Of a stretch of DNA of 25,600 bases, positions 3,648-10,580 are shown one piece after another (position 1 is the stretch's first letter; each line of letters opens with the position of its first letter). The DNA lies in IMG/VR virus record IMGVR_UViG_3300037264_001364, positions 1 through 25,600 of that record; one strand, given 5' to 3'. Below the pieces are notes generated by a model that saw nothing but the letters and a program-made list of their open reading frames with translations, made no database searches and was not told the origin of the DNA. The translations under genes and the position numbers were made by a program. This stretch comes from a virus.

Positions 3648-5400
3648 AATCTTTTTATTATTTCCTCAACCACGTTTACTACGACTCCGTTCCCGCATAG
3701 TTTGTAGCGCTGACTCATTGATACGCCTTCCGTCCAACCATCAGACAGTCCCATTAGTCTTTCACATTCAGTGGGAGTTAGGCGACGGATTTTCATCCCA
3801 TCATAGATTCCGTGTTTATCTTGTCCTGTGAGAGTGAAATTTGGTTCACCGTCTTCTTTGAAACGTCTGCCGTTTTGTCTTTTTATGAGGCGGTCGGGTG
3901 TCAGTACAGCCTGTATGAATGGCTGTCTATTTCCCCCCTGCATAGTGTTTAGAGTTGGTGATAAACCATCATCTGAATATACTCGGTCATTGGAGTGTTT
4001 GGGCTGATTTAATTGTCGTACACCAAGTCGTCCTTCATACCCCCCCCTATTATCAATGCCGGACTGATTCCGTTCCTCTGCCTCGGTGGCGCACTGAATC
4101 CCCTGTTGTTCTCTTTTTGTCGTTTGTTGTAATCCATCAGTTTTTTCACATATTCGTCCGATAGGAAATACTTGTCGTCCACCGAATCCTCCAAAATAGA
4201 GCTTAATGCTGTTTCGCATACTGTTTCCATTTTAGTTTGATAAATGTTTTCCCAATCTTTACCATCTCCAATGCTGAAAAAAAGTCTCCCTTGATATGGT
4301 TGCATCGCAAACAACAAAGGCATAGATTCCCCATTTCGTAATCTTTCAATGAGTCCATTCTGTCGATGGTCATTCTTGTCGTCCTGTTGTTGTACTTGTC
4401 CGGGAGTTCCTTCAACTGGCTCTCGTTGAGACCACAATAAAAGCATTTCTTCGGTTGGTTCTTGTACCATTCCACAAACTCGTCCTGTGTCATCAACACT
4501 TTCCAAGAACGCTCCGAGTGTCTCAATTTTTTGTATATTCCCTTCGGACTCTGATCGTATATTTTCTGATAACTTCTCAACTTCACACGGTTGTCCTTTG
4601 CGTATTGCCTCCCCAATTCCCTCAAGCAAGCTTTGCATTTCGGTTGAGGATAGCTCTTTCCCCTGTCTTTCCTGAATACGAAGAAGAAGTTCTCTTGTGT
4701 CCGAGGCAAGTTCTTCTGGCAACCAGTACATTTTTTCATTATAGGATATGTCATTCTTATATTGTATAGGAAACACTAATTTTTGACAAGTGCCAAGATG
4801 TCCGATAATGAACACTCTTTCCCTATTCTGCGGGACTCCGAAATTCTTTGCGTTAAGCACTTGCCATTCGACAGCATACCCCAATTCTGCAAGCGCGGTG
4901 ATGATGGTTTTGAAAGTTCTTCCACTGTCGTGAGAAAGGAGTCCTTTGACATTTTCAAGTAACACAAGCCTGGGGTGCTTTTCTTTGACAATTCGCAGGA
5001 CATCATAGATGAGAGTTCCTCTGGTGTCTTCAAATCCAGCTCGCTTTCCAGCGATTGAAAACGCTTGGCAAGGGAAGCCTCCGACGAGGAGGTCGAAGTC
5101 TGGTATGGTGCTTGCGTCGATGCCTGTGATGCTTCCATAGTTTTTGTGTGTTGGAAAGTGTTTTTGATAAATTTGGATGGCATACTTGTCGATCTCACTA
5201 AACCCCACGACTTCAATATTTTCTGCACCGATGGCTTGGATAGCACCGAGTTCAAAGCCACCATATCCGCTGAACAATGAGAGCATTTTAATTTTTCCAT
5301 TGTGTTTCTGAAGCTGATATTGCTGGATGTATTCCTTGGTCGCTGGGGATTCGTTTCGGTTGCTTCCACGCTCTTGAATTTTGAGCAATATCATTATCAT
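3635..5400 (-). CDS. C5-cytosine DNA methyltransferase, frameshifted, with nested HNH gene
   Basis: Dcm-type methyltransferase transferring methyl from SAM to C5 of cytosine. From the ATG at 5400 (ATGA overlap with the 37-aa gene stop) motif I FSGYGGFELG is at 43-52, motif IV GGFPCQAFS with catalytic C111 at 107-115, motif VI ENVKG at 149-153 and motif VIII QNRERVFIIG at 191-200. Target-recognition-like sequence (DDKYFLSDEYVKKL) follows about 200 residues later, much farther than usual, because an HNH ORF occupies 4203-4754 in another frame while this frame stays open. The frame then ends (VYDN*) just past a G8 tract at 4040-4047; a -1 shift there continues into motifs IX/X (LTPTECERLMGLSDGW, CGNGVVVNVVEEI) to 3635. 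The full product is about 588 residues. It may protect phage DNA from restriction. Activity depends on whether the frameshift is real. Confidence 0.8.
4040..4047 (-). repeat. G8 homopolymer at the methyltransferase frameshift
   Basis: Eight C on the + strand, eight G in the coding strand. With nine (or six) G the methyltransferase frame would be continuous. This could be a phase-variable tract, a slippery site or a sequencing indel. Confidence 0.8.
4203..4754 (-). CDS. HNH endonuclease nested in the methyltransferase gene (183 aa)
   Basis: Two zinc knuckles at the N terminus (C9-x2-C12 and C40-x2-C43, KCTGCQKNL ... PKCKACLREL), then C104-x2-C107 (CFYCGLNESQL), the HNH-type core TIDRMD at 129-134, and CLCCLRCNHIKGD at 145-157. 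This is the layout of phage HNH nucleases that recognise DNA with N-terminal fingers and cut with a His-metal finger. It lies wholly inside the methyltransferase gene, same strand, different frame, between motif VIII and the target-recognition region. Most likely a mobile endonuclease gene that inserted there. No clear SD precedes its ATG. Confidence 0.8.
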   Translation of the reverse strand: MTYPIMKKCTGCQKNLPRTQENFFFVFRKDRGKSYPQPKCKACLRELGRQYAKDNRVKLRSYQKIYDQSPKGIYKKLRHSERSWKVLMTQDEFVEWYKNQPKKCFYCGLNESQLKELPDKYNNRTTRMTIDRMDSLKDYEMGNLCLCCLRCNHIKGDFFSALEMVKIGKTFIKLKWKQYAKQH

Positions 5401-6566: not shown

Positions 6567-6725
6567 CTATTTATGATTATCCTTGTAAAAAATAATTATA
6601 TCTTCTAATGTTTTTGCCAGTGTTCTTTTTCCTTTGATGTCCCTTAAGTAGTTTACGCACTCTTTACTTATTCTTACCAAACTCTTATAAATTGTATTTT
6701 CCCACTTACCTTCTTTTTCATTCAT
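6567..6725 (-). CDS. Small helical protein (52 aa), possibly RHH-like
   Basis: MNEKEGKWENTIYKSLVRIS..., then LRDIKGKRTLAKTLEDIIIF. A short strand (YKSLVRIS) followed by two helices (KECVNYLRDIK, RTLAKTLEDIIIFYK) resembles ribbon-helix-helix DNA-binding proteins, but this is only a visual match. Its stop lies one base before the RNase HI start. A regulatory role is possible. It begins just beyond the 9-bp iterated repeat at 6735-6761. Confidence 0.6.
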   Translation of the reverse strand: MNEKEGKWENTIYKSLVRISKECVNYLRDIKGKRTLAKTLEDIIIFYKDNHK

Positions 6726-6734
6726 TTGTTTTTG

Positions 6735-6761
6735 TTTACTTAGTTTACTTAGTTTACTTAG
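6735..6761. repeat. Three perfect 9-bp tandem repeats (TTTACTTAG)
   Basis: TTTACTTAG three times in direct succession, then TTAAC, just upstream of the 52-aa protein start. Could be an iterated operator for that possible regulator, or a small replication/slippage repeat. Confidence 0.8.
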
Positions 6762-6790
6762 TTAACTGTACCCCCCTCTCGTTTTATTTG

Positions 6791-6886
6791 CTTACCCATT
6801 ATCATGCCTGCGGTTAGAGCATATCCTTCTAACCAGGAGGTAAAATGGTATAAGTGTAACAAAATATCTTAATGAATGGGGGTAAG
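6791..6886 (+). other. tRNA-like inverted-repeat element with SD-led two-codon minigene
   Basis: CTTACCC/GGGTAAG closes a 96-nt element. Inside are ATGC/GCAT around a GG-containing 11-nt loop (D-arm-like) and either TCCT/AGGA around TCTAACC or the alternative perfect hairpin GGTTAGA/TCTAACC. No T-arm is visible. Directly after it comes AGGAGGTAAA-ATG-GTA-TAA, a consensus SD followed by a two-codon frame. Read on the other strand, the same site carries ACCTCCT, matching the anti-SD of 16S rRNA. Function unknown. Confidence 0.35.
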
Positions 6887-6913
6887 TTGTCCATTAAGAG
6901 CAAAAAAACCAAG

Positions 6914-6942
6914 AAAAAAATAAACGATTTCGATTTTATTTT
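6914..6942 (-). terminator. Possible AT-rich terminator
   Basis: AAAATAAA/TTTATTTT (8 bp) around a 10-nt loop, with a run of seven T following on the - strand. The GC-poor stem makes it weak. It could end the transcript carrying the tRNA-like element at 6980-7049. Confidence 0.35.
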
Positions 6943-6979
6943 CTTTTTGCTGTTTTCGCTTTTTCTTTTTGTCTAAATG

Positions 6980-7049
6980 TCAGAGTACCTGGAGTCGAAC
7001 CAGAGCCAAATCCTTTAAGGGACTCATGCTACCGTAACAACTTACTCTG
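6980..7049 (-). tRNA. tRNA-like gene with 6-nt anticodon loop (CTTAAA)
   Basis: 70 nt. Acceptor stem CAGAGTA/TACTCTG (7 bp), D-arm around TACGGTA (three of four pairs), anticodon stem AGTCC/GGATT (5 bp with one G-T), variable TGGC, T-arm TCTGG/CCAGG with loop TTCGACT, discriminator A, no encoded CCA. Everything is tRNA-like except the anticodon loop, which is 6 rather than 7 nt. Counting from T33 the triplet would be TAA, yet the short variable loop is not that of a leucine tRNA. It may be non-functional, a mimic or a frameshift-type tRNA. Confidence 0.5.
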
Positions 7050-7084
7050 AAGGAACTTGACTTATATTTTCCCTATGATACAAT

Positions 7085-7209
7085 AAAAAACACACTCACA
7101 ACTACCTGCCTTTGCCTTAGAAAGTGACATGAGAGAGTTTGTCATTGACCTAGGCAAGCATGTGTGAACATGTTTTATTCTCTCATCTACCGCTTTCTAA
7201 ACAGTATTT
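7085..7209 (-). ncRNA. Candidate structured small RNA
   Basis: Starts about 7 nt after the -10 box of the promoter at 7216-7244 and ends in a run of six T (7085-7090). Two nested stems close it: TAGAAAG/CTTTCTA (7118-7124 with 7193-7199) and ATGAGAGA/TCTCTCAT (7129-7136 with 7179-7186). A TTGCCT in the enclosed loop can pair with AGGCAA just 3' of the outer stem, a possible pseudoknot. No ORF with a plausible start lies here. The T-run lacks a clean GC-rich stem directly before it. Confidence 0.5.
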
Positions 7210-7215
7210 GTATAT

Positions 7216-7244
7216 AGTATAACACATGAAATACGAAACTACAA
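7216..7244 (-). promoter_or_regulatory. Sigma70-type promoter (TTGTAG-17-TATACT, extended -10)
   Basis: - strand -35 TTGTAG at 7239-7244, 17-bp spacer, TGT before TATACT at 7216-7221. The -35 box overlaps the stop end of the 62-aa gene. It should drive the structured RNA at 7085-7209. Confidence 0.7.
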
Positions 7245-7427
7245 GCTTTTCCCATTCTTTTTTTTAGAGTGGTACTTTATTCGCCTTTTTCTATTGTGAG
7301 AACTCTTCTCAAATTCGTCTGGAGACATAAAGCTCTCGGCTTTTATAAGCCTAAATTCTTTGATTACCCTGTCAACATTGACAGAATCATCAAGTATTTT
7401 CGCCACCAACAAGTCTAAACCTTCCAT
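7239..7427 (-). CDS. Hypothetical protein (62 aa)
   Basis: MEGLDLLVAKILDDSVNVDR..., a helical N-terminal half followed by a very basic tail (KRRIKYHSKKKNGKSL) that could bind nucleic acid. It is the only ORF downstream of the promoter at 7581-7609, behind a leader of about 145 nt. No family recognised. Confidence 0.55.
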   Translation of the reverse strand: MEGLDLLVAKILDDSVNVDRVIKEFRLIKAESFMSPDEFEKSSHNRKRRIKYHSKKKNGKSL

Positions 7428-7580
7428 ATTTGTTTTTTACTCACCAGTTATCCGTTTTTTGTCATTACACGAATTTCAAGCGTTTTTTATTTTCCGGTAT
7501 TTCTAACATGTCCGAGATACCCAGTTTTCATTTGCTTCGTCCAGGTAAACTTTAACAGCTTCAACCTAGCTCTATATTAG
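7428..7580 (-). other. Leader of the 62-aa gene, no convincing gene
   Basis: Transcribed from the promoter at 7581-7609. Short frames exist (for example MKTGYLGHVRNTGK, and AVKVYLDEANENWVSRTC without an ATG), but none has both a start and a ribosome site. Possibly the remnant of a small gene. Confidence 0.3.
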
Positions 7581-7609
7581 AGTATAGCACACAAAATTAC
7601 AAAAGTCAA
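7581..7609 (-). promoter_or_regulatory. Sigma70-type promoter (TTGACT-17-TATACT, extended -10)
   Basis: - strand TTGACT at 7604-7609, 17-bp spacer, TGC directly before TATACT at 7581-7586. It lies just after the terminator of the MucR-like gene. Confidence 0.75.
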
Positions 7610-8465: not shown

Positions 8466-8690
8466 CTACAAATTGATTATTTCGGTATAGACAGTGCCTG
8501 CATGGTCTCGCCCTTTGCTTGTCCGGTCTACCGTCAAAATAAATTGCCCTTCTTGGTGTGAAAATCTTACGATACCGATTTCATAAATAACTCCATTGTG
8601 TAACGCCGTAAGTTTTGTATGGATGTAGTCATTACCTCCTTTTCCTTGCTCTTTTCCTCGTTCTGATGAAGTTTTTGCGTAGAGTTTCAT
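8466..8690 (-). CDS. Hypothetical protein (74 aa)
   Basis: MKLYAKTSSERGKEQGKGGN..., with strand-like segments (VIYEIGIVRFSHQ, GQFILTVDRTS, AGTVYTEIINL). Probably a small beta-barrel-like protein; no motif recognised. Follows the 41-aa gene by four bases in the operon from the promoter at 9763-9791. Confidence 0.6.
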   Translation of the reverse strand: MKLYAKTSSERGKEQGKGGNDYIHTKLTALHNGVIYEIGIVRFSHQEGQFILTVDRTSKGRDHAGTVYTEIINL

Positions 8691-10551: not shown

Positions 10552-10580
10552 AGTATAGCATAGATTTTTCAAAAAAGCAA
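10552..10580 (-). promoter_or_regulatory. Sigma70-type promoter (TTGCTT-17-TATACT, extended -10)
   Basis: - strand TTGCTT at 10575-10580, 17-bp spacer, TGC before TATACT at 10552-10557; drives the transglycosylase leader. Confidence 0.75.

Follow-up and report, generated by a model that had tools for sequence, protein, structure and literature searches.

The window analyzed here is the whole 25,600-nucleotide stretch of viral DNA (positions 1 to 25,600 of IMG/VR record IMGVR_UViG_3300037264_001364). On its minus strand, a predicted transcript reads leftward from about position 7209 to 7085, between a sigma70-type promoter and a run of six Ts, with a tRNA-like element as its downstream neighbor (Table 1). 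The first-pass annotation had proposed an extended -10 promoter leading into some 125 nt devoid of any ORF, two nested long-range stems and a terminal T6, and all of these are indeed found, on the minus strand: the -10 hexamer TATACT is preceded by TG, the longest ORF overlapping the region encodes only 31 aa, and the region holds no conserved ORF. The -35 hexamer is weak, matching the consensus at three of six positions. Minus-strand promoters combining a 17-nt spacer with TATACT occur at five places in the window (-10 elements at 10557, 9768, 7586, 7221 and 6048), four of which, including that at 7221, carry the extended -10 TG; since the design recurs at four other minus-strand sites, the promoter fits the phage's own pattern.

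Table 1. Features of the small-RNA locus and its predicted transcript, in window coordinates
Feature	Coordinates	Strand	Details
Promoter	7216..7244	minus	TTGTAG (7244-7239), 17-nt spacer, TG (7224-7223), TATACT (7221-7216)
Structured small RNA (predicted)	7085..7212	minus	~125 nt; conserved block from TACAAATAC (7212) to T6
P0, 5' hairpin	7188..7206	minus	TACTG (7206-7202) / CGGTA (7192-7188); in the MFE structure of both RNAs
P1	7117..7200	minus	TTAGAAAG (7200-7193) / CTTTCTAA (7124-7117)
P2	7129..7186	minus	ATGAGAGA (7186-7179) / TCTCTCAT (7136-7129)
Hairpin B, long 3' terminator-like	7087..7176	minus	5' arm ~7176-7152, 3' arm ~7115-7087; MFE structure of the full RNA
T6 tail of presumed intrinsic terminator	7085..7090	minus	identified from sequence; T8 of L106 lies equally far from P1
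tRNA-like element	6980..7049	minus	RF00005, 34.6 bits; begins 35 nt past T6

Searches against known families and for relatives were largely negative. Rfam 15 returned nothing at the gathering cut-off for the whole window except two tRNAs, a permissive Rfam search of 6700-7600 passed the tRNA-like element alone, and BLASTN of the RNA region against phage and plasmid records gave no credible match. Among the first 90 related loci, nhmmer, BLASTN and a single-sequence covariance model found no homologue; a 15-nt match in L012 was set aside, as it appears to fall in coding sequence. Pattern scans of viral contigs with fixed or relaxed P1/P2 stems yielded no match, no homologue of the RNA was found in L096 or L021, and a search for the host by way of the terminase in GTDB genomes gave distant matches only.

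A divergent homologue was recovered from L106 (5634-5501, minus strand), a locus drawn in together with further loci through the gene for a 74-aa protein (window 8469-8690) that related phages have in common. The covariance-model E-value of 0.0039 is a rough one, coming from one among several searches. The two RNAs align end to end: the alignment opens with TACAAATAC, where transcription is predicted to start, and runs through to the T-run. It scores 163, whereas shuffles average 76 (sd 12.5; z ~7) and none of 1000 comes up to it. The flanks on either side of the RNA give no above-chance alignment between the two loci, as fits an independent RNA gene at the sequence level. Conservation limited to the stretch from the putative start of transcription through the T-run likewise supports the reading of a noncoding RNA. 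Furthermore, L106 carries a sigma70-like promoter (TTGACA-17-TGC-TATGAT) at the same place as that of the window and a T8 after the RNA, with the T-run beginning 26 nt past P1 in both. Judged by sequence, each RNA thus has a promoter of its own, as expected of an independent sRNA. By tblastn at E<=1e-4, no window ORF other than that of the 74-aa protein has a match in L106, and the RNA is therefore common to otherwise different phages. No Rfam family matched the L106 region either, and together with the covarying homologue this supports the first-pass prediction of a dedicated phage noncoding RNA of unrecognized class.

A search of 2.88 Mb, on both strands, for TACYG/CGGTA followed by GGCAA returned the window and L106 only. 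R2 and a P0 motif, sought over 50 whole records, gave L106 again and otherwise a match in L117 only; the latter was rejected as a homologue, as it lacks a matching P1 strand in sequence and its fold differs.

Sequence conservation between the only two known members, on which all of the comparative evidence draws, is strongest in P0, P1, the following GGCAA and the tail, with P2 and the middle diverging. P0 in L106 is TACCG/CGGTA, a one-sided change from T-G to C-G relative to the window, and P1 is TTGGAAG/CTTCCAA, with one compensatory change (A-U to G-C) and one co-deleted pair. A helix of different sequence stands in place of P2. Hairpin B is kept: 22 aligned columns are paired in both RNAs, 7 of which show double-sided changes, a count biased toward agreement in that the paired columns come from each sequence's own MFE structure. 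When the middle was shuffled around an unaltered P0 and P1, the observed 3'-arm pairing was matched in 13 of 800 cases for the window and 1 of 800 for L106. Compensatory changes, the lack of which among homologues the first-pass annotation had named as counting against a structured RNA, are therefore present in L106 along with the replacement of a whole helix. Hairpin B followed by T6 in the window, and by T8 in L106, forms a predicted intrinsic terminator; a simple terminator scan of the window does not list hairpin B, which is long and has a loop beyond the scan's range.

The 5' strand of P1 sits in the loop of P0, and the two helices together would, in the modeled structure, form an H-type pseudoknot. 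The best-supported candidate pseudoknot pairs TTAGAAAG, in the loop of this 5' hairpin, with CTTTCTAA. A different one, between TTGCCT and AGGCAA, had been suggested initially: the two are exact complements, but MFE folding places TTGCCT in hairpin B, and the pairing is better read as a probable part of the 3' hairpin.

Statistics on the window fold by itself are modest, at 0.1-0.5% per segment. The 124-nt transcript has an MFE of -36.2 kcal/mol (z = -2.9), reached by 0.5% of dinucleotide shuffles; the 16 nested Watson-Crick pairs of P1 and P2 (8+8) arise in 0.1% of such shuffles (P=0.001); and by GC-regression the segment falls within the lowest 0.4% of the window in GC-adjusted energy. Such figures, and a covariance E-value of 0.004 from one among several searches, speak for a rival reading: structure arisen by chance in AT-rich intergenic DNA, or a DNA-level element such as protein-bound inverted repeats with no functional RNA. 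We nevertheless consider either improbable in view of the end-to-end alignment at z ~7, the promoter and T-run in register, the co-varying helices and the confinement of the matches in the 2.88-Mb motif search to the same two loci; the L106 RNA, moreover, is independently significant when folded alone (z -3.2), with 0 of 200 shuffles as stable. Very improbable, in our estimate, is a transcript of the opposite strand, or an antisense pair of both. Its basis would be a strong plus-strand promoter-like site at 7057-7084 (TTGACT-16-TG-A-TACAAT), which lies on the 3' side of the RNA gene and faces into it, and a plus strand that also folds well (-30.1, z -2.9). Yet L106 shows no evident promoter of this kind in the corresponding position, hairpin B relies on G-U pairs, which only the minus-strand RNA can form, and no clear plus-strand terminator is found near the end of the element.

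The tRNA-like element exceeds the RF00005 cut-off of 29 in the short-stretch search and is absent from the whole-window search report. With its threshold relaxed, ARAGORN folds 6980-7049 into a cloverleaf with a 6-nt anticodon loop, CTTAAA, its identity undecided between Stop and Leu. Although the score passes, we call the element tRNA-like only, because the loop has 6 nt rather than 7 and offers no readable anticodon. Its presence after the RNA, as pointed out at the outset, holds for the window but not for L106, where no such element adjoins the RNA, and it is therefore not demonstrated to be part of the RNA's unit. A single RNA of ~480 nt, in which the small RNA would be joined to the tRNA-like element and to a 'GGATATGC..TCTAACC' motif, was considered and dropped because, past the small RNA, the window aligns no better than chance with either L106 or L021; the L106/L021 downstream alignment is marginal (29 of 1000 shuffles). 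A shared downstream ribbon-helix-helix gene was likewise rejected: BLASTP gave no alignment for L106 and only a negligible one for L021, and Pfam did not return the family.

Further features were observed in the neighborhood and in related loci. Downstream of the tRNA-like element, a 29-nt AT-rich inverted repeat (79%) with T-runs at 6896-6963 is a possible bidirectional terminator. An iteron-like tandem 9-nt repeat, GTTTACTTA, is present in 3.8 copies at 6734-6767, just upstream of a 52-aa minus-strand ORF starting near 6725, and a 24-nt tandem repeat at 1367-1524, inside a 396-aa minus-strand ORF (1188-2378), encodes a repetitive stretch of DQV(R/C)KQ type. L021 has a tRNA-like gene at 4889-4958 (minus strand), typed SeC (tca) by ARAGORN, which could read UGA; it lies on the strand opposite the terminase and ~5 kb upstream of it, which resembles the position of the window's element, with the small RNA absent. 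In L104, a tRNA-like element at 1664-1440 (minus strand) bears a ~39-nt insert containing a related AAGATACTAACAGCAA and is flanked by two ~45-nt hairpin repeats, AAGACGC..GCGTCTT and AAGACTC..GAGTCTT, the stems of which differ by a compensatory change.

The order of folding bears on a further reading, that of a terminator-type riboswitch or attenuator in which a P0/P1/P2 sensor would compete with hairpin B and gate read-through to the tRNA-like element, 35 nt downstream in the window, and the genes beyond. In the modeled prefixes, nested P1/P2 is the MFE structure before the 3' arm is made (94-103 nt in the window, ~103-115 nt in L106), and once that arm is complete hairpin B wins by ~12-14 kcal/mol in both RNAs, with a heuristic path putting the refolding barrier near 17-23 kcal/mol in the window. 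The stability of the prefix alone is common among shuffles, so the switch model rests on recurrence in the two sequences. The RNA may either switch, or P0, P1, P2 and the outer part of hairpin B may coexist in one pseudoknotted fold that would leave no switch at all, a choice that ViennaRNA cannot make. Against attenuation, too, stands the downstream context: the sequences past the RNA are not alignable between the window and L106, no conserved downstream gene is found, and L106 has no gene for ~310 nt beyond its RNA and no tRNA match reported nearby. We therefore regard an attenuator as rather unlikely, and as distinctly unlikely one form of it, a new gene-control RNA class of phages whose 5' pseudoknot core would sense a ligand or protein and decide on termination at hairpin B, ahead of the tRNA-like element.

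With slightly more confidence than doubt, we lean toward a phage gene that stands by itself and specifies a structured sRNA of ~125 nt, with its own promoter and intrinsic terminator, acting in trans through its shape. Promoter, T-run, absence of an ORF, homologue and co-varying helices all lend this reading support at the level of sequence; transcription, termination, protein binding and trans action of the RNA are what we infer. A free-standing gene is likelier than a leader because homology spans the RNA from start to T-run and the downstream context differs. We propose that transcription would proceed leftward from the sigma70-type promoter at 7221, that the P0/P1/P2 core would be the first to fold, and that the 3' arm would then make the long hairpin B, stopping transcription at the intrinsic terminator at 7085 and capping the 3' end. 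The folded RNA would subsequently act in trans by virtue of its shape, most likely by binding a protein of the host or the phage, and less likely as a regulator that simply base-pairs with a target; since conservation concentrates in P0/P1, GGCAA and the tail, shape-dependent action, and most simply protein binding, is suggested. A duplex scan against phage gene starts, which ignores accessibility, ranked the small downstream ORF near the bottom and so gave no hint of a target there. If real, the gene founds a new small-RNA family common to otherwise different uncultivated phages, and the joining of a pseudoknot core to a terminator, both conserved, suggests a structure-dependent role in protein capture or gene control. 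The window and L106 sequences can seed covariance models with which to search metagenomes.

Among known systems, the antitoxin RNAs of type III toxin-antitoxin modules (ToxI and its relatives) are pseudoknotted phage or bacterial RNAs followed by a terminator, and in this the window RNA, as predicted, is like them. The tandem repeats of such modules have no counterpart array in 7085-7210, and no type III toxin endoribonuclease was detected by Pfam or PADLOC among the neighbors scanned. Lacking both repeats and a recognized adjacent toxin, the window RNA differs from the type III systems reviewed in PMC5086642 and PMC8860590. Like terminating riboswitches and attenuators, it may, as the models predict, set an upstream helix core in competition with a terminator hairpin and its T-run, but the conserved downstream gene is absent here and the switching is modeled only. 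Phage-encoded regulatory sRNAs as a general class (reviewed in PMC12197685) are alike in being small noncoding RNAs in a phage genome, the present one with its own putative promoter and intrinsic-type terminator, and the difference lies in the window RNA, which no Rfam family matches in sequence or structure. RNA anti-CRISPRs (Racrs), which imitate CRISPR repeats (PMC10651486), offer a further likeness, that of a small phage RNA thought to work through its structure.
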